Shown: one piece after another, positions 40,544 through 53,753 of the stretch
Position numbering within the stretch: the first letter of the stretch is position 1
How the letters are laid out: every line of letters begins with the position of its first letter
NCBI GenBank assembly: GCA_902543405.1
Contig: CACBYC010000005.1
Location: forward strand, 1 to 64,000
Length of the DNA: 64,000 nt
Source: an uncultured Pelagibacteraceae bacterium
Lineage (GTDB): Bacteria > Pseudomonadota > Alphaproteobacteria > Pelagibacterales > Pelagibacteraceae
Direction: 5' to 3'
Program-made: the position numbers and the translations under genes
Notes under the pieces: generated by a model
What the model was told of the DNA's origin: nothing
The model's input: only the letters and a program-made list of their open reading frames with translations
Database searches by the model: none

Positions 40544-40766
40544 TAATTAAAATAAAACTTTAGAATATTTATATAATAACTATATTACGTCTGTTGGATT
40601 TCCAACTATGACGATAAACGAATTTCGTAATAACCATTACGGACGTGGGGGCAGTACCCACCACCTCCACCATTTACAACTTAAGGGGGTGAATTAGGAT
40701 CGACGGGTGTCTAAAAGTTGTTCTTTCGTCCGGTATTGTTCCGCCGTGAAGGGCTAATTTATAAAT

Positions 40767-40796
40767 GCTAACGAAAGTTACGCACTTGCAGCTTAA
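40767..40796 (+). other. tmRNA proteolysis-tag reading frame
   Basis: GCT resume codon followed by codons for ANESYALAA and a TAA stop. The YALAA end is the classic degradation signal recognised by ClpXP and SspB-type adaptors. The stop codon lies in the 5' strand of a 9-bp stem, as in other tmRNAs. Confidence 0.95.
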
Positions 40797-40820
40797 TTAG
40801 TTTACTAATTAAGTTACGGG

Positions 40821-40851
40821 GTTTGGGGCACCTGGCAACAGAACGCCCCTT
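40821..40851 (+). repeat. Attachment site copy A (3' end of tmRNA coding piece)
   Basis: 31 bases at the tmRNA 3' end, starting GTTTGGGGCACC and ending AGAACGCCCCTT, are repeated exactly at 46186-46216. The last 14 bases recur at 53632-53645. The segment includes the GGGGC/GCCCC hairpin. After the final TT the sequence departs (CCAG here, ATTA in copy 2, TTTCAT in copy 3), marking the crossover side. It is interpreted as attL of a tmRNA-targeted island. Confidence 0.85.
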
Positions 40852-40904
40852 CCAGATTCTCGGTTCGCTAGAAAAATAAACACTTTTTAGAAAGTAAATA
40901 CAGG

Positions 40905-40928
40905 TTGGCGTCACGGTGGCGTCACAAG
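40905..40928 (+). repeat. Iteron pair B at left end of element 1
   Basis: Two GGCGTCA units (40907-40913 and 40918-40924) start exactly 11 bases apart, followed by CAAG. The same 24-base block with one difference (C to T) occurs at 46097-46120. It lies 53 bases from att copy A. Spacing of one helical turn suits arm-type binding by a recombinase or accessory factor (inference). Confidence 0.7.
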
Positions 40929-40939
40929 AAAGGAAAAAA

Positions 40940-41476
40940 CTATACCTTTTTACAATTAAAAATCATGGTTGGATATTCATCTGGACGTTGATAAAAATTT
41001 TTTTCTAATTTGTAGTCAAATTTTTTCTGTTTATCTTTATAAATAGAATAAAAATAATAACTTTCCACTACATCTCCATCTTTGGATTTATAATCTTGAA
41101 AATCTTTCAACGTCAAAATTCTATTATTATTTAAGACAGCATTTCCAAATAATGTTACCTCTGAATTTTGACCTCCATAATCAAGTTTAAAATTTGGTTT
41201 GTAAGGTTCATATGTATATTTCTTGCTACCATTATTTAACAACCAGTAATATTCATGCAATGTCCATATAAATTTTTGTCTTTCGATATCTAAAGTAAAT
41301 TCTTCATTAGTTATTAATTTATTTATATTATTTTTTTTTGCTTGCTTATAAGCATCATCATTTAAATCTTTAACTTCAACTATATTAGTGCATTTTAACT
41401 TTATTTCTTCAGACATGGTAGATGACGAAAAAAAAAGGGATAACAAAAAGATAGCAAAAACTCTTTTAATTAACAT
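40940..41476 (-). CDS. Exported protein of unknown function (element 1)
   Basis: A 178-residue protein from the ATG at 41476, with a signal peptide LIKRVFAIFLLSLFFSSS and cleavage expected near SEE. A longer frame begins 21 bases upstream, within the upstream gene. The mature protein is acidic to neutral, rich in Lys, Asn and Tyr, and has two cysteines far apart (KLKCTN near the N-terminus, FNCKKV at the C-terminus) that could form a disulfide. No domain recognised. It is the last gene of the operon, overlapping the previous gene by 11 bases. Confidence 0.7.
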   Translation of the reverse strand: MLIKRVFAIFLLSLFFSSSTMSEEIKLKCTNIVEVKDLNDDAYKQAKKNNINKLITNEEFTLDIERQKFIWTLHEYYWLLNNGSKKYTYEPYKPNFKLDYGGQNSEVTLFGNAVLNNNRILTLKDFQDYKSKDGDVVESYYFYSIYKDKQKKFDYKLEKNFYQRPDEYPTMIFNCKKV

Positions 41477-42257
41477 CAGGACAACCAATATATTCACCTG
41501 GATTCATTGCACACATTTCTAATTCTCTTTTTTGTTTTTCTAATTCTCTTTTTTCGAATTCAAGTTTTTTCATTTTATTTTTACTAATCTGTAATTCTTG
41601 CTTAAGATAATTTCTGTTTCTTTCGATAGCTTCTGCCTCTTCCTGAAGTTTGACAGTATTATAAACTTGCATTGCAGTGTCGTCTATTTTTTTTAAAAAT
41701 GTTTCTGATTTTAATCTTGTGTTATCAGTTATAGCTTGTATTTTTCTATTAAATTGTCCCCAGGTAATCTCATTATTTTCTAATTCGGCTAATGCAAATA
41801 AAGTCTGGATGTATCTTCTTTGAGGTATCATTGAGAGTTCTAATATTAATGCTGATTTATAGTTATTTGATCTAATATAATTAAAACACTTGTCTAGCTC
41901 TGAACCATAATCTGATATTAATTCCTTTTCTGTCTGATTAGCAAAACTACTGTCAGAAAAATTTTTATAAGTTTTAATTTTTGGACTTTTATTATGAAAG
42001 CCTAATTTTAAGAAAAGATTATTTTCAATATTTTCTTTTTTACAGTTACTAAAGGCTTCTAATTTTTGAAAAAAATCGTCAGACTCTTTTTGGTTAAATC
42101 CTTTTTGTTTCCAAGCATTTTTAACCTTTCTGTTTTCTTCATAGACTTTATTTGCTTCATCAAAAAAACCAATTGCAAAGTCTTTCCAAAAGCCATTTAA
42201 AAAAACAAAGCATATTAAAAGAAAAACTATTTTATTAACAAACTTCATATTTTTCAT
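41466..42257 (-). CDS. Exported coiled-coil protein of unknown function (element 1)
   Basis: A 263-residue protein with a signal peptide (KFVNKIVFLLICFVFLNGFW). The mature part is helical, with a probable coiled coil at about 205-248 (QEEAEAIERNRNYLKQELQI and on through repeated KxELEKQKRELE). It ends MCAMNPGEYIGCPDVN with two cysteines. An ATG three codons later is an alternative start. It overlaps the next gene upstream by 4 bases. Function unknown; a periplasmic structural or binding role is possible. Confidence 0.7.
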   Translation of the reverse strand: MKNMKFVNKIVFLLICFVFLNGFWKDFAIGFFDEANKVYEENRKVKNAWKQKGFNQKESDDFFQKLEAFSNCKKENIENNLFLKLGFHNKSPKIKTYKNFSDSSFANQTEKELISDYGSELDKCFNYIRSNNYKSALILELSMIPQRRYIQTLFALAELENNEITWGQFNRKIQAITDNTRLKSETFLKKIDDTAMQVYNTVKLQEEAEAIERNRNYLKQELQISKNKMKKLEFEKRELEKQKRELEMCAMNPGEYIGCPDVN

Positions 42258-42796
42258 TTTACATTTCTTAATGGTAAAATAGTTAATTTATCATTTAAAT
42301 TATAAAGACCATAAATTGTCATTCCAAATAATCTAGTTCTGTATTTAGAATAGTGTTTAATAAGGACTATACTTAGACAATCACTCTCAACATTAGGAGC
42401 AAAATCATTACAGAAATACAATGGTAATTCAGAAATTAAGGTATACTCAAACTCATCTCCAGAATTACACTCATCCAAGTATCTTGTTAAAGACATCTCT
42501 TCGTCCCATGATGAGTTATATTTATCTCCAATGGGTATCTCTTTTCCTAAATGATTACCTATTTTATTTACAAATAATTCAAATTTAGGATTACCCCAAT
42601 GTTCGTCTAATTTATTAATATAATTATCGTAGTATGACTCATACCAATCTCCAGATGCTACAGGATATAGGTTATTCAAACATTTTTCTGAGATTTTAGT
42701 ATTGTCATATACCCAAGGTTTATATTTTATTTCCTCTGCAAAAGTTAAGTTAAAAGAAAGAAAATAAGTGAAAAGTATTGTTATTATTTTTATCAT
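42254..42796 (-). CDS. Exported protein of unknown function (element 1)
   Basis: A 180-residue protein with a Sec signal peptide (MIKIITILFTYFLSFNLTFA, cleavage after TFA). The mature part has cysteines in SEKCLNN, LDECNSG, YFCNDF and ESDCLSI, enough for two disulfides in the periplasm. No domain recognised. Its ATG overlaps the upstream stop by 1 base and its stop overlaps the downstream start by 4, so expression is coupled. Confidence 0.7.
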   Translation of the reverse strand: MIKIITILFTYFLSFNLTFAEEIKYKPWVYDNTKISEKCLNNLYPVASGDWYESYYDNYINKLDEHWGNPKFELFVNKIGNHLGKEIPIGDKYNSSWDEEMSLTRYLDECNSGDEFEYTLISELPLYFCNDFAPNVESDCLSIVLIKHYSKYRTRLFGMTIYGLYNLNDKLTILPLRNVK

Positions 42797-43896
42797 TAAT
42801 ATTTGGGCTCTCCTCCTATACTATTTATCATCCAGGATGAATGCCATGGATAACAATTCCCAATTAATTCAAAAATATCTTTGTAATTATCATTGCTTAA
42901 GCAATTCTTTTTAACAACCTCAATCTCCTCTTTTGGAAGAGCATAATAAATTTTATCTTCATAAAGTTTTTCTATTTTCTCATATGTAATTGATAACTTT
43001 TCTAATGTTTCATTAAAATTTTTTATAATTTTATTTTCATTATCTATTTTAATAAGAATAAAACCATCCCATACATCCCACCAATAATTATTACTAAAAT
43101 CTTCATATATTTTATCAAAATTATTTTTAGTATAAGTGTTGAGTTTATCTACTTGTTTATACTTTGCTAATGTAGATAAAATTAAGGCTGGATTTAATTT
43201 GTTGATATCAATTTTCTTATTTAATTCCTCAAATTTTAAATCAAAATTAATTCCGTTTTCATTATCAATTTCAAAAAAAGAAGCTCCGTGGTAAAAATAT
43301 GTAACAGCACTAAAATTTCCACTAATAGTAACGCCATTAGCAAGTATTAATTTGTCATTATTAAGTAAAGCATCTTTTACTTGGTTTATTTTTAATTTAA
43401 TTAATTTATTCTGAATTTTCACTTGACCACTGTCCATATAAGGAACGAATAATCTAAAAGCAGTGAAATCTATATGTTTATATCCATCTCCACAATATTT
43501 GTGCCAACCTACTCCCCAGGCAATAACTTTTCCTTTATGTTTTATTTCATAAATAGAGGTTGCACCACTAACCTTTCTATCCACTAACGTAATCCCTTCA
43601 TTATCTTTGATTGTCATATCTCTAAAATTAGAAAGATATAAGGTTATTTTCTTATCAACTAAATTTATAGTTGATGATGCATTAGTTTGAAATTCTCTAT
43701 CGTATTTACTTTTTTCAAGCTTTGTAATTTTATTTGGTACTTCTTCTAAAATATTTTCAATGTTTAGAGGTGAATTAAAATATTGTTTTGGGTCTGGAGT
43801 ACATGCATTAAAATAAACATTTTGTCCTAATTCAAAAGAATAAGACAAATTTGTAAACAGTAATCCCAGAAATACGATACCTAAAAGTTTTTTCAT
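42796..43896 (-). CDS. Large exported protein of unknown function (element 1)
   Basis: A 366-residue protein with signal peptide MKKLLGIVFLGLLFTNLSYS. The mature N-terminus FELGQNVYFNACTPDPKQY resembles a short SH3-like or cell-surface lead but is not assignable. Cysteines occur near both ends (FNACTP, HKYCGDG, KNCLSND, GNCYPWH). Its first 17 coding bases are identical to those of the gene at 44739, although the mature proteins differ. One base separates it from the neighbour at 43898. Confidence 0.7.
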   Translation of the reverse strand: MKKLLGIVFLGLLFTNLSYSFELGQNVYFNACTPDPKQYFNSPLNIENILEEVPNKITKLEKSKYDREFQTNASSTINLVDKKITLYLSNFRDMTIKDNEGITLVDRKVSGATSIYEIKHKGKVIAWGVGWHKYCGDGYKHIDFTAFRLFVPYMDSGQVKIQNKLIKLKINQVKDALLNNDKLILANGVTISGNFSAVTYFYHGASFFEIDNENGINFDLKFEELNKKIDINKLNPALILSTLAKYKQVDKLNTYTKNNFDKIYEDFSNNYWWDVWDGFILIKIDNENKIIKNFNETLEKLSITYEKIEKLYEDKIYYALPKEEIEVVKKNCLSNDNYKDIFELIGNCYPWHSSWMINSIGGEPKY

Positions 43897-43897
43897 G

Positions 43898-44245
43898 TTA
43901 ATAAAATATTACACAATTCTTATCTGTATAGGATTTTGAATATCCAGACAAAGCATCTTGGGTTCTATTAATGACATACTTGCCTCCATAATCCATATAA
44001 ATATCAAAATCAAAATCACTTTGATTATCGCTGAACTCTCCGTAGACGCTAATTTTGTATTGTCGTTGATCTTTTGTTATTTTAAAGGTTATGCCATCAT
44101 TATTTGGAAAGCTTAATATAATTTCTGTATCTTTAACTTCATACATGGCTTTTCCATGTCTGAAATTATCACAAGTCCAAGTTTCAGTATAAGCACTCCC
44201 ACAAAATAACAAACTAAGAACAAGGATCGATAGAAGTTTTTTCAT
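43898..44245 (-). CDS. Small exported protein of unknown function (element 1)
   Basis: A 115-residue protein with signal peptide MKKLLSILVLSLLFCGSAYT, similar to those of its neighbours. The mature part (TWTCDNFRHGKAMYEVKDTE...) alternates short beta strands and has two cysteines, one near each end (WTCDN, KNCVIFY), suggesting a small disulfide-closed beta domain. No family recognised. It is 11 bases after the gene at 44257. Confidence 0.68.
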   Translation of the reverse strand: MKKLLSILVLSLLFCGSAYTETWTCDNFRHGKAMYEVKDTEIILSFPNNDGITFKITKDQRQYKISVYGEFSDNQSDFDFDIYMDYGGKYVINRTQDALSGYSKSYTDKNCVIFY

Positions 44246-44256
44246 AAATTTATTAT

Positions 44257-44739
44257 TTAGAATTTGGATGTTCCTCTTTTTTTACATTCCATTGTGTATG
44301 CATCATCAATATTAAATTTTTCTGTTTTACCATCAATAGGCTCTTCAGACACTCCTATTCCTGCAAACCCTTGAAGTCGATCAATTTTAACTAACCATAA
44401 ATGATCTTTAAAATCAGAACTCCACCATTCTGTCCAATCACTGATATAGGTTGTGTATTTTTTATATTCTCCAGATTTAGATTTATATTTCGAACCCTCA
44501 ACAAGCGGTCTCGCCTCTGACTCAACTACGTATTCATCGATTTTTTTAACAAAAAATTCTACTTTGTTACCCCCTGATCCTTGAAATACTTGAATAATTT
44601 TTTCATCAAAATTTATATAAATATAGTCATCAAAAGCTATTCCCATAATGATATCTTTGCATTTTAATTTAGTCATTACAGCATTTGCACTTTGGCAAAA
44701 CAAAATACTTAAAACCACGATCCCTAAAAGTTTTTTCAT
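44257..44739 (-). CDS. Exported protein of unknown function (element 1)
   Basis: A 160-residue protein with signal peptide MKKLLGIVVLSILFCQSANA. The mature part begins VMTKLKCKDIIMGIAFDDYI and ends TMECKKRGTSKF, again with one cysteine near each end. Predicted strands with Trp-rich stretches (SDWTEWWSSDFKDHLWLV) suggest a beta fold. The overall plan (one signal peptide, beta-rich body, N- and C-terminal Cys) resembles the gene at 43898 and could reflect distant paralogy. It overlaps the lipoprotein gene by 4 bases. Confidence 0.68.
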   Translation of the reverse strand: MKKLLGIVVLSILFCQSANAVMTKLKCKDIIMGIAFDDYIYINFDEKIIQVFQGSGGNKVEFFVKKIDEYVVESEARPLVEGSKYKSKSGEYKKYTTYISDWTEWWSSDFKDHLWLVKIDRLQGFAGIGVSEEPIDGKTEKFNIDDAYTMECKKRGTSKF

Positions 44740-45206
44740 TTATTTCTTGGAAGAACTCTCACTTGCTCTCCATAAACAATGGTAACTTTATCATCTAATT
44801 TAAATTTTGATTTGTTATCTTTATCAGTACCTTGAATAACTCCTATTGGTTTATCCTCACCATCAATTGAAATTACATATTGAAAACCATTGTGTTCACC
44901 CAGTTTAACAGTTGAATAATAACCAATTACACCTCCAATTGTTGTACCTGCAATTATTGCAATATCTGTTCCTCTTCCGCTACCTATGTCTTCTGCAATT
45001 ATACCTCCAATTGCTCCACCAACTGCGGCGCCTATATCTGATGTTTTGCCTTTAATTTTTACAGGTACAATATCAACTATTGTGCCAAAGTCTGTATTTA
45101 AGACTACTTGACTATCATCTTTACTTGCGTTGTAAGGATTTGAAGTGCATGAGTAAATAAATAATAATATTGCTATAACCAGGTATTGTATTTTAATTTT
45201 GTCCAT
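44736..45206 (-). CDS. SlyB/Pcp-like outer-membrane lipoprotein with glycine zipper
   Basis: A 156-residue lipoprotein. The signal MDKIKIQYLVIAILLFIYSC has its lipobox cysteine at residue 20. A glycine-rich hydrophobic segment, DIGAAVGGAIGGIIAEDIGS followed by TDIAIIAGTTIGGVIGYYS, is the 2TM glycine-zipper domain of the SlyB/Pcp family. The C-terminal part (FQYVISIDGEDKPIGVIQGT ... VRVLP) is the usual beta domain. SlyB helps keep the outer membrane stable under stress in E. coli. It is the only island gene of element 1 with a recognisable family. Confidence 0.8.
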   Translation of the reverse strand: MDKIKIQYLVIAILLFIYSCTSNPYNASKDDSQVVLNTDFGTIVDIVPVKIKGKTSDIGAAVGGAIGGIIAEDIGSGRGTDIAIIAGTTIGGVIGYYSTVKLGEHNGFQYVISIDGEDKPIGVIQGTDKDNKSKFKLDDKVTIVYGEQVRVLPRNK

Positions 45207-45672
45207 AAATTATTTTTTTTAATTTTTCTATTTGTTGTTTTAATTCATCATTTATTTCTATATCAAACCTAAAATCTAATTCTGCTTTAGTTACTTTTTT
45301 TACTTTTCCCCATGACAAAGCGTGCATTCTTAATTTAAAAGTTTGTTTTGATATTCCTTTTCTACCTATTCTAAATTCTTGGAAGTAATCATCAACGACG
45401 AATCCCTCTTTATCTAGCATTTTAAAGTCATAGGCACCTTTAATCTCCTCACTACAATTATTTTGCAATCTAACAATAAAACGTGCATCGCTCCAACCCA
45501 TATTTCCAAGAGTACTTAATGCATTTCTTTTTGATTTAATATCTACTACCTTAATACAATTGATCAAATCTTTATCAACTGACTGTACTTCAAAATCCCA
45601 TTTTTGAGTTTTAGCAAACGCAATCTGATTAAAAAATAAAACAATAATGGCAACAAAACATATCTTTTTCAT
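45193..45672 (-). CDS. Exported protein of unknown function (element 1, operon start)
   Basis: A 159-residue protein with signal peptide MKKICFVAIIVLFFNQIAFA. The mature region has an immunoglobulin-like strand pattern (SDARFIVRLQNNCSEEIKGAYDFKMLDKEG), similar in shape to FxLYD-type domains that describe protein modification of a conserved core, and ends in a charged helix (ELKQQIEKLKKIIYGQN). Two cysteines (INCIKV, NNCSEE). First of eight overlapping genes; overlap with the next is 14 bases. Function unknown. Confidence 0.7.
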   Translation of the reverse strand: MKKICFVAIIVLFFNQIAFAKTQKWDFEVQSVDKDLINCIKVVDIKSKRNALSTLGNMGWSDARFIVRLQNNCSEEIKGAYDFKMLDKEGFVVDDYFQEFRIGRKGISKQTFKLRMHALSWGKVKKVTKAELDFRFDIEINDELKQQIEKLKKIIYGQN

Positions 45673-45736
45673 GATCCAAGATTAACAAATCCTGAACCAC
45701 GAGTCTGCCTCTATTTATTCATGATATCCAATAAAA

Positions 45737-45940
45737 CTAAGTAGCTATTGCCTTTTTTGAATTCTGGACATAGCAATCTCTACATACTGGTTTTTCTGCT
45801 ATTTCAAATTCTGAAAAATATATTTTCATTCTCTTTCTGACTGGTTTTTCTTGTCCACAGAAACCACACCTTTCGGTTCTGATTTTTTCTAAAGTTTCCG
45901 CAGTTACGCTATCCTGAGAATTTATATTATACCAAGCCAT
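45737..45940 (-). CDS. Small protein with two CxxC pairs (putative zinc-binding)
   Basis: A 67-residue protein with CGFC and CRDC motifs about 30 residues apart (ERCGFCGQEKPVRKRM ... KPVCRDCYVQ), the layout of a treble-clef or zinc-ribbon domain. There is no signal peptide, so it is cytoplasmic, unlike the other genes of element 1. It could bind nucleic acid or act as a small regulator; this is inference. It lies 64 bases upstream of the exported-protein operon. Confidence 0.65.
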   Translation of the reverse strand: MAWYNINSQDSVTAETLEKIRTERCGFCGQEKPVRKRMKIYFSEFEIAEKPVCRDCYVQNSKKAIAT

Positions 45941-46073
45941 TGAATTATTTATGGTACCAAAAAGTTTTCAATTGTCCTGTCTTTATTCGACTTGCTATAC
46001 ACCTAAAGCAGTGGGACCCCTTTATGTAGTTATTGGTATGTGGGTAACTTTAATTAAATCTATTTTGGACTTT

Positions 46074-46092
46074 GTTTGGGACCCCTCTTCCA
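46074..46092 (+). repeat. Degenerate att-like motif
   Basis: GTTTGGGACCCCTCTTCCA keeps the outer parts of att copy A (GTTTGGGG at its start, CCCCTT plus the following CCA at its end) but lacks the middle. It is followed 4 bases later by iteron pair B', echoing the A-then-B order at the left end. A shorter GTGGGACCCCTTT occurs at 46011-46023. These may be relics of earlier integrations. Confidence 0.4.
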
Positions 46093-46096
46093 ATAT

Positions 46097-46120
46097 TTGG
46101 CGTCATGGTGGCGTCACAAG
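46097..46120 (+). repeat. Iteron pair B' near right end of element 1
   Basis: 24 bases differing at one position from 40905-40928, with two GGCGTCA units (46099-46105 and 46110-46116) 11 bases apart. Same orientation as the left copy. It lies 65 bases before att copy A'. Confidence 0.7.
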
Positions 46121-46185
46121 TTCCTTGATTGGTGTTCTATTAATGGTAGTATTTATCTGTGTTTATTAGTGGATCTTGATAAACA

Positions 46186-46216
46186 GTTTGGGGCACCTGG
46201 CAACAGAACGCCCCTT
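46186..46216 (+). repeat. Attachment site copy A' (exact 31-bp repeat of tmRNA 3' end)
   Basis: Identical to 40821-40851 over 31 bases and different on both sides (preceding A instead of G, following ATTA instead of CCAG). It marks the junction between two tandem elements. It lacks the tmRNA tag and acceptor piece, so it is not a functional second tmRNA. Confidence 0.88.
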
Positions 46217-46260
46217 ATTAAAGGTTTCCCTTATCCACACTCATTTTCTAAAAATAAAGT

Positions 46261-46291
46261 TCAATGAAGGTTCAATGAAGTTTCAATGAAG
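46261..46291 (+). repeat. Three TCAATGAAG iterons at left end of element 2
   Basis: TCAATGAAG at 46261-46269, 46272-46280 and 46283-46291, spaced exactly 11 bases start to start. The same 9-mer occurs three times near the right end (53520-53584). It starts 45 bases inside att copy A'. Interpreted as arm-type sites for recombination. Confidence 0.75.
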
Positions 46292-46314
46292 TTTGAAAAC
46301 AACAGAAATAAGTT

Positions 46315-46488
46315 TTACCTCTTATTTTTAATTTTAAATCCTTGAGACTCTAATATTTTAATCAAATTAATTTTCATTTGGTCCCTAGATGTTTTTCTGT
46401 CACCTATTTTCTCAAAAAATATTGGTTTTAAACCTCTATCTTTTTTTGATTTAAAATAGTCTTTTATAGATTGTATTTTAATTTTCAT
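46315..46488 (-). CDS. Small basic protein of unknown function
   Basis: A 57-residue frame starting MKIKIQSIKDYFKSKKDRGL and ending KILESQGFKIKNKR. It has an unusually perfect ribosome-binding site for this genome (AGGAGG, 3 bases before ATG), which argues that it is expressed. About a third of its residues are Lys or Arg and it contains no cysteine or membrane segment. Its place beside the att site and iterons, and its size and charge, would suit an excisionase-like or DNA-bending factor or a control protein, but no family motif is seen. Confidence 0.55.
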   Translation of the reverse strand: MKIKIQSIKDYFKSKKDRGLKPIFFEKIGDRKTSRDQMKINLIKILESQGFKIKNKR

Positions 46489-46589
46489 GTGCCTCCTTTA
46501 GCGTTATTATTTTATGTCTGAAGCAAGTAGAGTAATTTCTAAATCACAGACAATTTTAATATATCATATTAAAAATATTTAACCAGTCC

Positions 46590-46997
46590 TTGAAAATTGA
46601 AAAATTGTTCCTAAATATATCATTGTTAACCATCTTAAAAACTAAAAAACTCACTTACATTTATGGAAAATATAATCTGCCGAAAGGTTGGAAATACGAA
46701 GTATTTGATAAAAATGAAAATCCAATCGCAAAATACTATTCAGCATTAACTGATTATGGGGAAATGATTAAATACTCTGACATAATACATCCTAAAAATA
46801 GTAATATGTTTGCAGAATTTGATGACTACATAAACATCAAAAAAGAAGACTTAAAGGGAATTACTTTTGAACAACTATTGTTCTATTTAAAAAATATAGA
46901 ACCAAAAGAAAAACAATCAAAGAAAGATTGTTTAATTCAATTATTAGATAAAAAACAAATCAAATATGAGGAAGGACTATGGGATGAAGCAGTTTAA
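46590..46997 (+). CDS. Protein of unknown function (element 2)
   Basis: A frame of 135 residues from a TTG codon; no ATG occurs before about residue 58, so the start is uncertain. The region KGWKYEVFDKNENPIAKYYSALTDYGEM looks like a small beta domain, and the acidic C-terminal part (GITFEQLLFYLKNIEPKEKQ) is helical. No family recognised. It ends 8 bases before the convergent stop of the EVE-like gene. Confidence 0.5.
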   Translation: MKIEKLFLNISLLTILKTKKLTYIYGKYNLPKGWKYEVFDKNENPIAKYYSALTDYGEMIKYSDIIHPKNSNMFAEFDDYINIKKEDLKGITFEQLLFYLKNIEPKEKQSKKDCLIQLLDKKQIKYEEGLWDEAV

Positions 46998-47005
46998 TAC
47001 AGACA

Positions 47006-47422
47006 CTATTTCAAATTAAAAAAACTCTCTAATTTTTTTGTATCAAACTCATTTAATTTTAACGGAGCATTAAGTAATCTTAAACCAGGACTTTTTGCTA
47101 AAGCAAAAACTTCTAATTCATTTTTAATATTATCAAAATCTAACCAATTTTCTTGATTAAGAATTTTTAATGGTTTTGTTTTAATCGCTTTGGTGAATTC
47201 TTTGTCGTATTTATAGGTATTTGGTAAATCAAAAATTTCATTGCTAGTTATTTTTCTAATATCAGAAAATTTTTTTTGTTTTGTTATGTATGTAAAAATT
47301 TTATCATTATTTTCAAATTTTTTATTTTTAAATACTCCTAGATGCATTCCTAGAAATTCAAATTTATTTTGAAAATCATTTTCCCAGTTAAACAAACTTT
47401 CTACAAATATCCAATTGTTCAT
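47006..47422 (-). CDS. EVE-like (PUA-fold) putative modified-base-binding protein
   Basis: A 138-residue cytoplasmic protein. It opens MNNWIFVESLFNW and continues with FLGMHLGVFKNKKFENNDKI, then IFTYITKQKKFSDIRKITSNEIFD, which resembles the EVE-domain order: an initial Trp strand, a G-x-(W/H) segment, a GD-x-(V/I)-x-x-Y-x-T strand and an x-K-I-T-S strand. EVE/YTH/PUA-fold domains bind modified bases and are often attached to or beside restriction enzymes. The match is by pattern only. It is divergent from the nuclease gene across 51 bases, fitting a role in the same system. Confidence 0.5.
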   Translation of the reverse strand: MNNWIFVESLFNWENDFQNKFEFLGMHLGVFKNKKFENNDKIFTYITKQKKFSDIRKITSNEIFDLPNTYKYDKEFTKAIKTKPLKILNQENWLDFDNIKNELEVFALAKSPGLRLLNAPLKLNEFDTKKLESFFNLK

Positions 47423-47473
47423 AATTTAAATATATAACTGGTTTAGTATTTTTTTTAGTGCTATTTTTTTATT

Positions 47474-48532
47474 ATGAAAATAGCAGATAAATTAGGTTTA
47501 AAAGATGAAATTTTTGCAAGAATGGTGGTTAAAACAAAAATGTTATTTTCTAATGTAATTGGACATGCTGCAGAACTACATTATGAAAAATATTTAAAAA
47601 ATTCTAAAATTCAATTTACAAAAGCAGATACAGATAATCACTTTGATTACATAGTCGACAATAAAAAAGAGCAAGTAAAAAGATGGGAAAGCGCTGGTAC
47701 AAACGATAAATTTCTTGCGATCAATTTAACTCAAACCCATGGTGATCGTTCTGGAGAAGGAAATTTTTACCATAAAAAATCTTTTGATAAATTAGTTGCT
47801 TATGATGTTCTTTTTAAAAGTTTTAAAAAATTTGACATTAGCGAAATTGAAACCAACAAAAGATTTAAAGATTATATTGTTGGCAAATTTAAAATAAAAA
47901 GAGAAACTGAAAATCTATTAGATAATGAACAAAAAGAATTTCTTAATCTCATTAAAGTTAAAAACAAAGATTATCCTGATGCACTAGAAAAATATAAATC
48001 TAAATTAAATTTAAATTATTTGGATATACTTAAAAAAGTTTGCAATCTTACACTCGAAGAAATTGATAGTTTATTTACTGATGAAAACTTCAGACTAGTA
48101 ACAGGTGCAAAAGGTTTTGCAGCAGAGGAACACTTCAATGTATTGCTTGAAAAAAATAAACTTAATTATAAACAAGATAAAGATATGTATTCTAAAGTTG
48201 ATCATTGGGTTGGAAAACACAGGGTGCAAGTAAAAATTCCAAATTTAAGAGCAGTCACTAATGAAAAATGGGCATTCAAAACACATAAGTCACACGGTTC
48301 AGGTGTTAAAGAACTCTACACTACCGATGAATTTGATTTTGTTGCTCTATTCATAGGATTTAATATGAACGAAAAAATAGATAGATACTTGCCTGTATCA
48401 GTCAAAAATGAATTTTTAATTATTCCTACAAAAGATCTTCCAGAACATCCAAAATATCCCGGTCATTTAAAAAGAGTTTCTTCATTTAATAAGGATTATT
48501 ATAAAGTTAATGATTTATCTTTATTAATTTAA
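47474..48532 (+). CDS. Putative restriction endonuclease with two PD-(D/E)XK-like domains
   Basis: A 352-residue protein that looks like an internal duplication. Domain 1 (about 25-145) has GHAAELHYEKYL (E34), then D58 in NHFDYIV and a QVK motif at 67-69 after E66. Domain 2 (about 210-350) repeats the plan with GFAAEEHFNVLL (E218), D243 in SKVDHWV, and Q252-V-K254. Each also has a HG segment (THGDRSGEG; SHGSGVKE) and a later FDKLVAYDVLF / FDFVALFIGF strand. Helix-E, D and (E/Q)xK are the usual catalytic set of this superfamily. It sits 16 bases before two methyltransferase genes. Specificity unknown. Confidence 0.65.
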   Translation: MKIADKLGLKDEIFARMVVKTKMLFSNVIGHAAELHYEKYLKNSKIQFTKADTDNHFDYIVDNKKEQVKRWESAGTNDKFLAINLTQTHGDRSGEGNFYHKKSFDKLVAYDVLFKSFKKFDISEIETNKRFKDYIVGKFKIKRETENLLDNEQKEFLNLIKVKNKDYPDALEKYKSKLNLNYLDILKKVCNLTLEEIDSLFTDENFRLVTGAKGFAAEEHFNVLLEKNKLNYKQDKDMYSKVDHWVGKHRVQVKIPNLRAVTNEKWAFKTHKSHGSGVKELYTTDEFDFVALFIGFNMNEKIDRYLPVSVKNEFLIIPTKDLPEHPKYPGHLKRVSSFNKDYYKVNDLSLLI

Positions 48533-48548
48533 AAGATATTAAATTTAT

Positions 48549-49364
48549 ATGGCAGAATCGATATTTAGATACCCTGGGGGAAAATTAAAAGCGTTAAAAT
48601 TTATAAATCCATTTTGGCAACAAATAAATCATGATGAGTATAGAGAACCATTTGTTGGTGGTGGTTCTGTATATATCCATAAACCAAATGTTCAATTTAA
48701 TTGGATTAATGACTTAGACAAAGATCTTTATTCTTTTTATAAAATTATATCTAAAATTGATGATAGAGAAAAATTAATTAATGACTTAACTAAAGCGAAA
48801 ATTAATAAAAAAAATCACGACAAATTATACTATTCCAAACCTAAAACTAATTTTGAAAGAGCGTATAGATTTTATATTTTAAATAGATGTTCTTTTTCTG
48901 GAATAACAAAATGGAATTCTTTTATTGGAGATGTGAGATATAATATTAAGAGAGCACAAAAGTTGATAAATCTTGTTGGTGAAAAATTAAAGAAAACAAA
49001 AATAACTAATTCTGATTTTGAAAAAGTTATTGTAGAAAAACCTAGTGGAAAAAAAGTATTTCTTTTTCTAGATCCACCCTATGCTGAAAGTAGACAAATA
49101 GCGGCATATAATATTCATTTTGAAAAAAATGATCATGAGAGGTTGGCAAAATTATTAAAACAAACAAACCATCCCTTTTTATTAACTTATGATAATTGTG
49201 AATACATAAGAAAACTTTATAAATGGGCAAATTTTTATGATCATACTTGGACATACTCTGTAGCAAATTCAAAAGTTCATCATAATCCAAGAGAAAGTGG
49301 CAATGAACTATTTATCTCAAATTTTAAACTCAAGTCGATTAATGAAAATCTCAAACTAATATGA
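48549..49364 (+). CDS. D12-class DNA adenine-N6 methyltransferase 1
   Basis: A 271-residue Dam/MboI-type methyltransferase. Motif X is RYPGGKLKALKFI near residue 7, motif I REPFVGGGSVYI at 32-43, INDLDKDLYSFYKII near 53, and the catalytic motif IV DPPY at 175-178 within LFLDPPYAESRQ. S-adenosylmethionine-dependent adenine methylation is expected, protecting DNA from the adjacent nuclease. It overlaps methyltransferase 2 by 4 bases (ATGA). The two proteins are clear paralogues with different central (target-recognition) regions. Confidence 0.9.
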   Translation: MAESIFRYPGGKLKALKFINPFWQQINHDEYREPFVGGGSVYIHKPNVQFNWINDLDKDLYSFYKIISKIDDREKLINDLTKAKINKKNHDKLYYSKPKTNFERAYRFYILNRCSFSGITKWNSFIGDVRYNIKRAQKLINLVGEKLKKTKITNSDFEKVIVEKPSGKKVFLFLDPPYAESRQIAAYNIHFEKNDHERLAKLLKQTNHPFLLTYDNCEYIRKLYKWANFYDHTWTYSVANSKVHHNPRESGNELFISNFKLKSINENLKLI

Positions 49365-50137
49365 AAAGAGTAAAAACTTGCTTAAGAACGCCAGGGGGTA
49401 AATTTTATGGATTTAGAAAATTAGAAAAATATTTTGATACTGATTTTAATGAATATAGAGAACCATTTTTAGGTGGTGGAAGTGTTTATCTATCTTTAAA
49501 TAAAAATACAAAAAAAAATTGGGTAAATGATATTGATAAAGATCTTATAAATTTTTATCAGACAATAATTGATGATAATAAAAAAAAGCAACTTTATAAA
49601 CTTTTAAGAAATGAAAGTGTTGATAAATCTAGATATAAAAAAATATTAAATTTTTCTCCAAAAAATAAAATAGAAGAGGCATATAAATATTTTTATATTA
49701 ATAGAACCTCTTTTAGCGGCATTATGAATAAACCAAGATGGGGTTACAAAATTGGAAGTAGTGTTGAACCAAAAGGATGGATTGATCGTATTGAACCTGT
49801 TTCCTTAAAGATGAAAAATACTGATTTAACTTCTCTTGATTTTAAAAAAGTAATATCTAAAAAAAGTTCAAATAATGTTTTAATATATTGTGATCCTCCA
49901 TATTATAAGGTTTCAAAGGGAATTTATAAAAATGAATTCTCTCAAAAAAATCATGAAGATCTTTGTGATTTACTAAAAAAAACTAATTTCAAATTCTTAC
50001 TTTCATACAATTATCATAAAGAATTATTAAAAATGTATAAATGGGCATTCATTAATAGTACTGACTGGAAATACTTTATGAGTGAAGGAAGAAGGTTGGT
50101 TGGAAACGAATTAATCATTTCAAATTATAAAATTTAA
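49361..50137 (+). CDS. D12-class DNA adenine-N6 methyltransferase 2
   Basis: A 258-residue paralogue of the preceding enzyme. Motif X is LRTPGGKFYGFRKLE near residue 8, motif I REPFLGGGSVYL at 33-44, VNDIDKDLINFYQ near 55, and motif IV DPPY at 178-181 in IYCDPPYYKVSKG. Two separate m6A enzymes are typical of systems with an asymmetric recognition sequence, each methylating one strand (known for several type IIS systems). Its stop overlaps the convergent helicase gene by 4 bases. Confidence 0.9.
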   Translation: MKRVKTCLRTPGGKFYGFRKLEKYFDTDFNEYREPFLGGGSVYLSLNKNTKKNWVNDIDKDLINFYQTIIDDNKKKQLYKLLRNESVDKSRYKKILNFSPKNKIEEAYKYFYINRTSFSGIMNKPRWGYKIGSSVEPKGWIDRIEPVSLKMKNTDLTSLDFKKVISKKSSNNVLIYCDPPYYKVSKGIYKNEFSQKNHEDLCDLLKKTNFKFLLSYNYHKELLKMYKWAFINSTDWKYFMSEGRRLVGNELIISNYKI

Positions 50138-53100
50138 ATTTCATAATTTAAAAATTTAAAAAAATTATTCATAAGTTTTATTTGATCTAAGTTTTTTGGA
50201 GAACTATCTAATAATTTAGGGTTAAAAAGTATTATTGAAGTAACTTGTGCTCTTGAAATTGCAACATTCAATCTATTTCTACTAAAAAAAAACTCTTTAT
50301 TTCTGGGTAAGGAATCGTTGTCAGATGAAGTCATAGAAATAATAGTTATTGGTGCTTCTTGACCTTGAAATTTATCAATAGTACCCACTCTAGGGTTCTT
50401 AATCTTTGCTTCTTCTAATTTAGAAATTAAAAGATTAACCTGTGTATTGTATGGACTAATAATCAGAAAATCATCAACGGTTAATTTTCTTTTTTTACCA
50501 TTATCATCAAAATCACTTCCTATTAATTGTTGCATTAAATCTTTTACAATTTCAAACTCTTCAATACTTGTTTGAACATTATTTTTGTGATCCATTTGGA
50601 TGTAGTGAATTCCATCTTTTTTAATTAAAGATTTTTTGTCAAATTTAATTATTCTCTTATCTGTTCTTTCATCACAGACCAGTCTTTCTTCATAAAAATT
50701 TGATGAAATAAAATTATTTATCTTAGAATTTAATCTGTAAGTTTTATTTAAAAATATTCCTCTATCTTCTGGAATTGTATCTTTACCTTCTAAAAGATAA
50801 TCTAAAATTGATTGACCGGACTCGTTAGGATGTGTTCCTCTTATTGGTTGTCCTAATTGATTTTGATCTCCTATTAAAACTATATTTTTTGCTATATTGC
50901 CTATGCTAATTAAATCTGCCAAACTTACCTGACCTGCTTCATCTATAAAAAGATAATCAATTTTCTCATCATAAAATGAACTTGCTAAATGATATTTGGT
51001 TCCCGCAAATATTTGACCTACATTATCTTCTTTTAAAGCATCCATAAAAATAGGATCTTTTTCATATGTTTTTATAAATTCTCCATTAAATATAGTATCC
51101 TCATCTTCCAAGTTTCCTCTTTTATAACCTTCAAAGTTAAATTGTTTTTCTTTTGCCATGTCTTCAATTCTTTGGAGCAAATTATGAATTACTTTGTGAG
51201 ATAAACCTGTAATTGCTATCTTTTTATTTTGTTTTAACAATTCTATGATTGCATTAGATGCTTGAAAAGTTTTACCAGTTCCTGGTGGTCCTTGAATGTA
51301 AATAAAACTATCTTCTAAATTAGAAATAATTTTTGGAATCTCTTTACTAAAGTCATCTGACTTAACTATTTTTTCTCCATTTTTAATTCCTTTAATATTT
51401 GGGTGTTTCTTTTCTAAAAAGTCATTCAATGCTTTATATTTTTTCTCATTATTGATTAATGTATCTATGAATTTGTAAGTATTGGAAATGAGTTTAGTAT
51501 TTGGTCTAGGTTTATCGGGACCTATAGATAATAATTGAGGTAACAAACCTTGAGATTTTCCTCTCTTCAATAAAAGTTCCTTTTTTTTATAATCAATGTC
51601 AATTATTGTTCCTGCATAATCATTTTGTTCAATATCTTGATTGTTTGCAATTACAGTTTTTTTACTTTTTCTTAATTTAAAATCTTGGTCTTCAAATTTA
51701 TATGAATATAACAATGATCTTTTGTCAGTAGTAGGTTCACCATTTGACTTCATGTTTCCTATGCACTCAGGATCATCAATTAGTTCTTCGTCAGATTTTG
51801 TTCTTCTATCAAAAAACTCTCTCCATGCGGGTTTGTCTTCACGATTATAAAAACCAATAATGTCAGACATTAATTGTTTTATTTGTTTATTTTTAATTTT
51901 AGACTTTTCAACTTTCTCTTGGTAAGTAATCATATCCACTTCCCAATCTCTTAGTTCCATTTCACTATCCTTTTTTTGTGAAACAAACCAAGAAGTTTCT
52001 GAGGGTTTGATGTCCAACAACCATTTATGAAGTTGGTAAGTAGAATTGCAATCTTGTTTATTGTAACTTTCTATCTCATCTAAAAAGTTTTGATCCTGAG
52101 TTTCTAACCATTCTATATAGTATTCTTGAGATGCATCTCCCCTTTGAACATCACCTTCTCTTTTAAACTCATAAAATTTTTCAACATTTTTAAGTGAGTA
52201 ACTATTTTCTGAAATGAAAAGTCCTTGTCTATTTACCTCTAATAAATTTACAAATTTATCTAGGTTTAAATAGTGATCATATTCAATACCCTTGACTTTG
52301 TGAAATGAAGTTAGTTTTAATAACGCAGTAATCTCATACGAACCATAATGATAAATTTTTGAATTTGGATACTTTTTAAAATGAGATTTAGTAAAATTAA
52401 AAAATTTAATTAAGTTTTTTTTTTCTTCTTCTTTGCTATGAGACCATAATGCCTCAAATTTCTCTTTTCCATTTTCTATATAATAAATTCCTAATAAATA
52501 TTCCAAACCTCCTGGATAGATATGATCTTCAACACTTTCTATATCAAAGTACAAATCACATTCTGATGGTTCAGGTAATAAATTAAAACCTTTAAAACCA
52601 TTTAGATTATTAGGATTTGGTTGATGAATTGGGACATTTGTTTTTTCATACTCTTTTTGAAGTTTTGCTTGAGTGATTAACTTATGTGATATTTCTTTCC
52701 TAAAACCTTTAAGAATTTTATTTGGATTTTGTTTGGAGAGTTTAGTTGCTGTATCAATTTTAAATTCTAATAGTTTTTTTAAATGTACTTTAGTTAATCC
52801 ACCAATTTGATTAAGATTATCCTCTTTAATCCAAATTTTTTCGCATTCTTCTTGCCATTCGCAAGTACTACAAAAACTACACTTCTCTGGTCTTTGTTTA
52901 TCTACACCATTTCCAACAAACTTCTCGTAATTTTCTCTATGAATTTTAAAAAACTCATTAACTTGATTTACTTGAACATCTTCCCTAACCATATTCTTTA
53001 AAACAATAGTAAATCTTTTTGGAAGAACGCCTTGAGTGTTCTCCAACATATATGTGTACATTCCTAATTGAATGATGTGATCTGGTTTTGGTTTATTTGA

Positions 53101-53499
53101 ATACTTTGTATCAATTACCTCATAACTATAATCACCAAATTTTGATTTAAGTTCTTTATTGATTATTAAAAAATCAAATTCACCAGTCCACTTATCTTTC
53201 TTTAACCATCCACCATGAATAATTTCCCAACCGTCTTTCATTGCTTGAATTGTTTTTGAGATTTTTTCTTCTCTAGTTAAATCAGATTTTTTTAAATCTA
53301 ATACTTTCTTATGTGTTTTTTTAAGTTCTTTTAGATAATCTTTTTCATGTTGATTACCTTTTTCAAATCTTATTTTATCGTTAATATTAAGTTCAATTTT
53401 TTTAAGATTTAATTTTTTTTCATTAATTTCATTAAAAATTATGTACTTACAACCTAAGTACTTTTTAAGCATTGTGGGTGAGTAAAGATTTTTTGCCAT
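50134..53499 (-). CDS. Multidomain nuclease-helicase (RecB/Cas4-like nuclease, RNase H-like exonuclease, SF1 helicase)
   Basis: A 1121-residue protein from the ATG at 53499; a TTG 24 bases upstream, inside an iteron, is judged less likely. Domain 1 (about 1-225) is a TM0106/RecB-like nuclease: D109 in GEFDFLI, EVIDTKYS near 127-134, QLGMYTY near 144, and a cysteine cluster CSFCSTCEWQEEC near 207-219, likely an Fe-S site. Domain 2 (about 318-495) is RNase H-like (DIES near 319, YHYGSYE, YSLKNVEKFY, YNKQDC). Domain 3 is an SF1 Upf1/Dna2-type helicase: GPPGTGKT near 737, DEAGQ near 853, IGDQNQLGQ, TYRLN, GTIDKFQGQE and RLNVAISRA. It could process foreign DNA. Confidence 0.85.
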   Translation of the reverse strand: MAKNLYSPTMLKKYLGCKYIIFNEINEKKLNLKKIELNINDKIRFEKGNQHEKDYLKELKKTHKKVLDLKKSDLTREEKISKTIQAMKDGWEIIHGGWLKKDKWTGEFDFLIINKELKSKFGDYSYEVIDTKYSNKPKPDHIIQLGMYTYMLENTQGVLPKRFTIVLKNMVREDVQVNQVNEFFKIHRENYEKFVGNGVDKQRPEKCSFCSTCEWQEECEKIWIKEDNLNQIGGLTKVHLKKLLEFKIDTATKLSKQNPNKILKGFRKEISHKLITQAKLQKEYEKTNVPIHQPNPNNLNGFKGFNLLPEPSECDLYFDIESVEDHIYPGGLEYLLGIYYIENGKEKFEALWSHSKEEEKKNLIKFFNFTKSHFKKYPNSKIYHYGSYEITALLKLTSFHKVKGIEYDHYLNLDKFVNLLEVNRQGLFISENSYSLKNVEKFYEFKREGDVQRGDASQEYYIEWLETQDQNFLDEIESYNKQDCNSTYQLHKWLLDIKPSETSWFVSQKKDSEMELRDWEVDMITYQEKVEKSKIKNKQIKQLMSDIIGFYNREDKPAWREFFDRRTKSDEELIDDPECIGNMKSNGEPTTDKRSLLYSYKFEDQDFKLRKSKKTVIANNQDIEQNDYAGTIIDIDYKKKELLLKRGKSQGLLPQLLSIGPDKPRPNTKLISNTYKFIDTLINNEKKYKALNDFLEKKHPNIKGIKNGEKIVKSDDFSKEIPKIISNLEDSFIYIQGPPGTGKTFQASNAIIELLKQNKKIAITGLSHKVIHNLLQRIEDMAKEKQFNFEGYKRGNLEDEDTIFNGEFIKTYEKDPIFMDALKEDNVGQIFAGTKYHLASSFYDEKIDYLFIDEAGQVSLADLISIGNIAKNIVLIGDQNQLGQPIRGTHPNESGQSILDYLLEGKDTIPEDRGIFLNKTYRLNSKINNFISSNFYEERLVCDERTDKRIIKFDKKSLIKKDGIHYIQMDHKNNVQTSIEEFEIVKDLMQQLIGSDFDDNGKKRKLTVDDFLIISPYNTQVNLLISKLEEAKIKNPRVGTIDKFQGQEAPITIISMTSSDNDSLPRNKEFFFSRNRLNVAISRAQVTSIILFNPKLLDSSPKNLDQIKLMNNFFKFLNYEI

Positions 53500-53519
53500 A
53501 TTAGAATTTACCCCAATTC

Positions 53520-53584
53520 TCAATGAAGTCTAGAAACGGGGTTTTTGAAAAATGGTCAAACTCTCAATGAAGTCTTCAATGAAG
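53520..53584 (+). repeat. Three TCAATGAAG iterons at right end of element 2
   Basis: TCAATGAAG at 53520-53528, 53564-53572 and 53576-53584. Spacings are 44 (four times 11) and 12 bases. Same sequence and orientation as at 46261-46291. It ends 47 bases before att copy A''. Confidence 0.75.
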
Positions 53585-53624
53585 TATTCCAAATATCTAG
53601 GTATTTTGGTATAATTTGGTTCTC

Positions 53625-53648
53625 GGGGGACACAGAACGCCCCTTTTT
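53625..53648 (+). terminator. Hairpin plus T-tract at att copy A'' (displaced tmRNA terminator)
   Basis: GGGGG (53625-53629) can pair with CCCC (53640-53643) and is followed by TTTTT (53644-53648). The last 14 bases before the T-tract extension, ACAGAACGCCCCTT (53632-53645), equal the end of the tmRNA att repeat. Reading across, the original tmRNA would have ended GCCCCTTTTT; the island now separates the T-tract from the gene. Confidence 0.6.
53632..53645 (+). repeat. Attachment site copy A'' (14-bp partial, right end of island)
   Basis: ACAGAACGCCCCTT matches the last 14 bases of the 31-bp att copies. Upstream it diverges, though GGGGG is kept, so the hairpin shape survives with a shorter loop. 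It is 22 bases from the tRNA-Leu 3' end and is taken as attR. Confidence 0.65.
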
Positions 53649-53667: not shown

Positions 53668-53753
53668 TGGTGCGGCCAGAGAGAATCGAACTCTCATGAG
53701 CAAGGCTCACACGGCCCTCAACCGTGCCTGTCTACCAATTTCAGCATGGCCGC
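53668..53753 (-). tRNA. tRNA-Leu (anticodon GAG)
   Basis: 86 bases including encoded CCA. The acceptor stem is GCGGCCA/TGGCCGC with A discriminator. The anticodon arm GCACGG-TTGAGGG-CCGTGT shows anticodon GAG (reads CUC/CUU). A long variable arm (GAGCCTTGCTC) and the T arm GAGAG-TTCGATT-CTCTC are present, as expected for leucine. It lies directly outside the right end of the island but is not itself disrupted. Confidence 0.95.

Follow-up and report, generated by a model that had tools for sequence, protein, structure and literature searches.

How is a genomic element that carries no integrase recognised and moved? This question is raised by a stretch of 64,000 nucleotides (the window), which is one contig of the SAR11 genome G000 (82% complete, 37 contigs) and holds two elements in tandem between the 3' end of the transfer-messenger RNA (tmRNA) gene and the tRNA-Leu(gag) gene (Table 1). 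Inside both ends of each element there are short direct repeats (iterons), GGCGTCA in element 1 and TCAATGAAG in element 2, and an earlier reading of the letters of this DNA (the sequence-only reading) had taken them for element-specific arm sites through which a recombinase encoded elsewhere would recognise each element. The evidence presented here, likewise drawn from sequence, indicates that the iterons are probably arm-type sites of lambda-like tyrosine integrases and that both elements are probably integrase-less mobile cassettes stacked at the tmRNA 3' end.

SAR11 bacteria, which count among the Earth's most abundant cells, have streamlined genomes and few recognised mobile elements. Regarding how they gain variable genes, such cassettes would be a concrete and searchable vehicle with defence and other cargo.

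Two elements at the 3' end of the tmRNA gene

The integration site of both elements is the 3' end of the tmRNA gene and not a tRNA. The core at this end is repeated without mismatch at the boundary between the elements, and the third core is composite: its left half differs from the tmRNA 3' end, with a half-type core at 53632. In six relatives (L222, L223, L224, L225, L229 and L237) the site is empty (attB), and the tmRNA core is followed by 19-30 bp and the reversed tRNA-Leu(gag) gene. L108 was also considered as an empty site and was ruled out, since a cassette-like remnant of 160 bp lies between its core and tRNA-Leu. As at lambda-type attachment (att) sites, the core is common to element and target, and the end of the target gene is rebuilt.

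On recount, the iteron coordinates of both elements were all exact. TCAATGAAG is present six times in the window, always on the + strand (46261, 46272, 46283, 53520, 53564, 53576), and none of 100 dinucleotide shuffles reached this count (mean 1.5). GGCGTCA occurs five times, four of these being the two pairs of element 1, and again no shuffle out of 100 reached five (mean 0.68), so the enrichment over shuffled sequence that had been proposed as a check was found for both. Measured from ACAGAACGCCCC, the left array of element 2 has CAATGAAG at +59, +70 and +81, and its right sites have it at -111, -67 and -55 from the core. The element 1 pair forms a 24-bp repeat, of which 23 positions are identical between the left and right ends. 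Direct repeats at helical spacing are found on both sides of an element, as at lambda-type att sites. The 11-bp periodicity that the sequence-only reading had seen at both ends holds for both ends of element 1 and for the left end of element 2, but not for the right end of element 2, where the spacings are 44 and 12 bp.

A family with shared ends and different interiors

GTDB contigs totalling 257 Gb were scanned for exact occurrences of TCAATGAAGNNTCAATGAAG, and of the 43 loci obtained, 23 belong to Pelagibacteraceae. In all 23, the array lies 59-71 bp to the right of a tmRNA-derived core, with a shift of one base or an extra unit in a few loci. A slightly looser exact pattern placed the TCAATGAAG array likewise at core-flanked ends in 11 of 11 genomes of the genus, again beginning some 59 bp to the right of the core. 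Random scatter through host genomes and absence from the ends of homologous elements had been named in advance as findings that would count against arm sites; the iterons were not scattered in either set, and they are present at those ends.

Fifteen complete TCAATGAAG elements could be compared, fourteen in fetched DNA together with the window element. Counted from the left core, their units stand at about +59, +70 and +81, and counted from the right core, at about -111, -67 and -55; in a sub-group they are shifted by 2-12 bp. The 44- and 12-bp spacing on the right of element 2 is thus conserved across the family. Median identity is 84% for the left ends and 93% for the right ends. The interiors, of 0.6-7.3 kb, show DNA similarity in only 6 of 105 pairs (under 50 bp in two of these), and the cargo includes DNA methyltransferases, an AlwI-type restriction enzyme, GIY-YIG-like and PD-(D/E)XK proteins and MORN repeats. 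The iterons do define families, as had been suggested. The iteron observation is solid because this end geometry is conserved across 15 elements from different genomes.

Sites bound by repressors and Rep proteins, too, typically consist of helically spaced 9-bp repeats in tandem, and the iterons could in principle be operators or replication iterons with no tie to integration. This is hardly credible, given that the repeats stand at both ends, in one orientation and at a fixed distance from the core whatever gene is inside, and that such repeats also precede integrase genes.

The integrase search used two purpose-built hidden Markov models (HMMs), made from 21 lambda-like and 10 Xer-like SAR11 recombinases. 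With them, no tyrosine integrase was detected in any TCAATGAAG element, nor in the fetched core arrays, save those of G134 and G504 and a fragment in G132. There was no PF00589 match in the window genome, which is 82% complete. Ten genomes with TCAATGAAG elements comprise six with a conserved Xer-like recombinase and four, in incomplete assemblies, without a PF00589 match, and one of the ten also has a larger integrase. The larger SAR11 integrases (400-570 aa) were ruled out as owners of TCAATGAAG, none having adjoining TCAATGAAG repeats.

The conserved chromosomal Xer-like recombinase, of about 320 aa, might itself be the enzyme, and the system would then resemble an integron in relying on a fixed recombinase of the host. 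It is single-copy in nearly all Pelagibacteraceae genomes at a conserved host locus, and the cassettes are far commoner than lambda-like integrases. Nevertheless, this option is quite improbable: the protein has no detectable arm-binding domain, no core lies nearby, the four incomplete assemblies mentioned carry TCAATGAAG elements without a PF00589 match, and the ends of element 1 are tied to a different integrase.

As a separate observation, the neighbours of this single recombinase of Pelagibacteraceae are constant on one side (homoserine dehydrogenase, transporters) and variable on the other (loci in Table 1). XerC/XerD-like enzymes take its place in the sister family.

An integrase beside ends like those of element 1

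A search for a tyrosine recombinase flanked by the same iterons had been proposed as a check; such an enzyme, directly preceded by GGCGTCA iterons, was found in the SAR11 genome G134, at the tmRNA, and none was found for TCAATGAAG. In G134, the tmRNA core is followed by a near-identical element 1 left end including GGCGTCATGGTGGCGTCA, and the ATG of an integrase gene (L113:7470) comes about 20 bp further on. The match to the left end in the window covers 358 bp at 93.6%, tmRNA included. A second G134 contig starts within a primase-like gene, and its foreign part ends with the element 1 right end, the core and tRNA-Leu(gag), matching the window over 524 bp at 80%, including the 67-aa open reading frame (ORF) and a degenerate repeat pair. 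From comparison with the homologous G309 element (L259), the G134 primase gene seems to lack no more than a small piece. The G134 element would then be an integrase-primase element of 4-5 kb without capsid genes.

The integrase (L113:7470-8462) has a 343-aa frame and keeps the catalytic residues. Its AlphaFold model (mean predicted local distance difference test score, pLDDT, 88.5) has three strands and a helix at residues 2-45; this predicted beta-beta-beta-alpha N-terminal domain is the arrangement of an arm-binding domain, with a lambda-Int-like fold. Moreover, Foldseek aligns the model over its full length with lambda Int (1z1b, 1z1g). A putative cognate integrase with a predicted arm-binding domain is thus the sequence neighbour of the GGCGTCA pair on L113. 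The repeats are best read as arm-type sites because the ends of element 1 match those of an element whose integrase has this predicted fold.

A conserved non-coding stretch (AATCCTATAGTTTAAAGGTT..CGCATAGCTAATTCGAGG) was also seen after the integrase gene, at L113:8463-8560 and L259:4711-4810. It occurs in two minimal integrase-primase elements that are related but differ in their attachment site.

Genome G504 carries a complete 6.2-kb element at the tmRNA, with an integrase 52% identical to that of G134, small ORFs and a 733-aa DUF5906 primase. Its repeats differ (GTTAAGCAA), and the G134 and G504 primases showed no significant similarity. Other SAR11 integrases of the G134 type adjoin tRNA genes or lie elsewhere. 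For 13 of 21 such enzymes, a pair with 11-bp spacing precedes the start codon by 30-43 bp; these pairs differ in sequence, and none is TCAATGAAG. The arm pair GGGCACACATAGGGCACA before the tRNA-Met-associated integrase of G543 (L137, upstream of 1501) is identical to pairs of tmRNA cassettes in three further genomes (L073, L074, L117), which suggests that arms and core specificity can be reassorted. In G394, at L255:1-560, a series of CACTAC-type repeats about 11 bp apart stands before a 570-aa integrase, which is another integrase class with helically spaced repeats.

Probable arm repeats and movement of cassettes across the order

When up to two mismatches are allowed, 320 of 397 genomes of the order contain the core, and in many of them it stands in two to five tandem copies. 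Tandem pairs of 9-mers (at least 8 of 9 positions matching, at least three G or C) were counted around an unselected set of 161 cores, from loci picked solely for containing a core. Pairs spaced by 11 bp were found right of 16.8% and left of 14.3% of these cores, against a background of 1.3%; a spacing of 12 bp was enriched on the left only (13.0% against 1.7%), and no other spacing from 5 to 21 bp showed enrichment. The repeat sequences vary among cassettes (ACTATGTAC, TGGCACA, GACGCA, TGTACGG, ACTCGTC, GATCGC, ACACG-type and others). End sharing was assessed in 89 cassettes with a median length of 829 bp, all of them 300 bp or longer because the two end windows of shorter ones overlap. A direct 9-mer common to a cassette's own two ends was present in 32 of the 89, compared with a mean of 2.6 and a maximum of 10 in permuted pairings, and inverted matches were at chance level. 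Having the same repeat at both ends and different repeats between elements is therefore a property of the system, and the repeats behave as the proposed element-specific arm sites would.

Eight cassette pairs are common to different genomes with dissimilar neighbours, and one of them is 99.3% identical, against 93% for its tmRNA flank. These near-identical copies in different surroundings show that cassettes move as units. They bear on the possibility that the elements are decayed remnants which lost their integrase and travel only with neighbouring functional elements by accretion. CIMEs (cis-mobilizable elements) and accretion are established elsewhere (PMC5704250, PMC3146451), and element 1 has both ends of an integrase-carrying element, as a deletion derivative would. 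We regard decay as rather unlikely, because 15 TCAATGAAG elements with near-perfect end geometry and mostly unrelated interiors would not be expected from one parent, and because cassettes are common to genomes in which their neighbours differ.

Core copies and cassette arrays also occur away from the tmRNA. Some follow tRNA-Thr, and others come immediately behind the stop codons of host genes whose translated ends, the sole basis for naming them, read as rnhA, pnp and topoisomerase-like (loci in Table 1). The core has thus spread to secondary sites.

The cores are near-identical direct repeats in tandem, and homologous recombination between them and the conserved flanks could shuffle cassettes, with the iterons as mere passengers. 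Such shuffling leaves unexplained the conserved arm positions, the 11-bp preference and the insertions behind rnhA-like, pnp-like or tRNA-Thr genes, which makes it very improbable as the explanation.

Proposed mechanism

In the arm-site reading, the N-terminal domain of an integrase would bind the distant repeats while its core-binding and catalytic domains hold the core, and the enzyme would recombine the short core common to element and tmRNA. Recombination would rebuild the tmRNA 3' end at the left and leave a usable core at the right, and therefore further cassettes could stack. Each family bears its own arm repeat next to a core common to all, so that a given integrase would be expected to act on the elements marked with its address, even though the core is the same throughout. 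The enzyme would be supplied in trans by small integrase-plus-primase elements, such as those of G134 and G504 at the tmRNA, entering or resident in the cell. We infer this action in trans because the elements contain no integrase, and the window elements are best read as integrase-less hitchers or CIMEs.

A broader picture, which may or may not hold and is put forward tentatively, is a two-tier addressable cassette economy: a non-autonomous pool, many with defence cargo, would share one tmRNA-derived core and have interchangeable arm addresses, with a separate visiting satellite integrase to read each one. In this picture, the TCAATGAAG family would be a site-specific counterpart of miniature inverted-repeat transposable elements (MITEs), with fixed termini of about 110 bp, arbitrary content and a helper that is never or rarely resident. 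The end signature lets members be found and matched to their enzyme, and it makes the arm-site idea testable: does the pairing of integrase and cassette depend on the arm repeats and nothing else?

Several points weigh against the arm-site reading. A strict tandem 9-mer pair stands at only 17% of cores, so that many cassettes may have degenerate arms or none. The G134 element is split over two contigs that are not joined. Integrases of its type are present in 18 of 399 genomes of the genus, two of them at the tmRNA, so most cassettes are without a resident helper. No integrase with TCAATGAAG arms was found in genomes carrying TCAATGAAG elements or beside other SAR11 integrases. Finally, recombination was not observed in this sequence-based analysis, and searches of IMG/VR and phage records gave no excised circle or phage-borne attP.

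In these searches, the core in IMG/VR, tried as a phage attP, corresponded only to tmRNA genes encoded by T4-like phages, and two shorter core patterns gave solely high-GC chance matches in viral sequence. The left-end consensus had no match in the viral search, the right end had none among phage records, and no TCAATGAAG or GGCGTCA pair in viral contigs adjoined a core. One low-GC viral match (L012) proved on detailed reading to be inside a coding gene. Close relatives of the G134 integrase were absent from IMG/VR, and phage records had only matches of <60% identity. Separately, T4-like marine phage contigs (L003-L010) have their own permuted tmRNA, with a 3' hairpin that is the same as the host attachment core.

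Comparison with known systems

No paper on SAR11 tmRNA islands was found in the open literature, most subscription journals being outside the search. The nearest known parallel to these cassettes is given by the ssrA islands of Dehalococcoides, which are in tandem and bounded by copies of the tmRNA 3' end; 15 of 31 are without an integration module and have been suggested to be cis-mobilizable (McMurdie 2011, PMC3146451). Those islands use a CcrB-like serine recombinase, DsiB (PMC3146451), whereas the match of element 1 is a lambda-like tyrosine integrase and the SAR11 families, unlike them, have their own arm repeats in fixed geometry at both ends. In place of a DsiA/DsiB module, the complete relatives G134 and G504 carry tyrosine integrases, no separate search for serine recombinases having been made.

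Like CIMEs of the ICESt1 type (PMC5704250), the window elements have attL and attR, contain no integration or transfer genes and are stacked in one site. CIMEs are described as decayed integrative and conjugative elements (ICEs) or integrative and mobilizable elements (IMEs) (PMC5704250), whereas the TCAATGAAG cassettes have shared ends and swapped interiors. No integrase-bearing parent was found for the TCAATGAAG family or element 2, while element 1 shares its ends and the 67-aa ORF with G134.

The sequence-only reading had likened the elements to satellites or tycheposons, a fitting comparison for elements that carry an integrase; those without one have more in common with CIMEs. Tycheposons of Prochlorococcus, as covered in PMC10872708, PMC11389934 and PMC10803314, resemble the SAR11 elements in streamlined marine hosts, a tyrosine recombinase, cargo islands and satellite-like relatives. 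As described there, they use tRNA sites and a resident recombinase, whereas the window elements use the tmRNA without a recombinase. The G504 element recalls phage-inducible chromosomal minimalist islands (PICMI; PMC10803314) in its integrase, DUF5906-containing primase, small ORFs, lack of recognised capsid genes and size of about 6 kb. Unlike PICMI, with integrase, AlpA, primase and Fis, it has only integrase and primase among recognised genes, and it differs in its SAR11 host and tmRNA site. None of these four genes is present in either window element, and, regarding packaging by a helper phage, cassette end sequences were not found in IMG/VR or phage records. Clusters of attC sites lacking integron-integrases (CALIN; PMC11389934) are also arrays of small integrase-less cassettes thought to be mobilised in trans, but their boundaries are attC hairpins, whereas the SAR11 sites are a lambda-type core and arm repeats in the tmRNA.

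Gene content of the window elements

Table 1. Positions of the attachment sites, repeats and genes in the window, and loci in other genomes
Feature	Position	Strand	Remarks
tmRNA (ssrA), permuted alphaproteobacterial type	40555..40853	+	Rfam alpha_tmRNA 227.5 bits; ARAGORN
Core 1, attL of element 1 = tmRNA 3' end, GTTTGGGGCACCTGGCAACAGAACGCCCCTT	40821..40851	+	Sequence comparison, Rfam match, empty-site relatives
Element 1 (5.3 kb), secreted or lipoprotein-like ORFs on - strand, no integrase	40852..46185	.	
Element 1 left arm pair, GGCGTCA at 40907 and 40918 (11 bp apart)	40905..40928	+	
67-aa ORF, also in right end of G134 integrase-carrying element	45737..45940	-	
Element 1 right arm pair, GGCGTCA at 46099 and 46110	46097..46120	+	
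Core 2, boundary of elements 1 and 2, perfect 31-bp copy of tmRNA 3' end	46186..46216	+	
Element 2 (7.4 kb), defence-like cargo, no integrase	46217..53631	.	
Element 2 left arm array, three TCAATGAAG 11 bp apart	46261..46291	+	
352-aa protein, no family match	47474..48532	+	
D12-class N6-adenine DNA methyltransferase	48549..49364	+	
Second D12-class N6-adenine DNA methyltransferase	49361..50137	+	
Cas4-like / RNase H-like / superfamily 1 helicase fusion, about 1120 aa	50134..53523	-	
Element 2 right arm sites, TCAATGAAG at 53520, 53564, 53576	53520..53584	+	
Core 3 (attR), element-type half-site CTCGGGGGAC joined to ACAGAACGCCCCTT	53615..53645	+	
tRNA-Leu(gag), host gene facing tmRNA	53668..53753	-	Adjoins tmRNA directly in empty-site relatives
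Core/array loci away from tmRNA	L071, L072, L080, L085, L088, L122, L124, L132, L119		
Xer-like recombinase loci	L089:4644-5600, L090-L095, L103, L104, L106		

In element 2, the 352-aa protein might be guessed to be a restriction endonuclease from its position beside the methyltransferases. The annotated TTG start of the Cas4-like helicase fusion overlaps the right arm region, and the true start probably lies later. This gene has a homologue in L187 with 86% DNA identity. In element 1, several ORFs at 43855-45672 have similar signal-peptide-like N-termini (MKKLLGIV..), as if they were duplicated secreted proteins.

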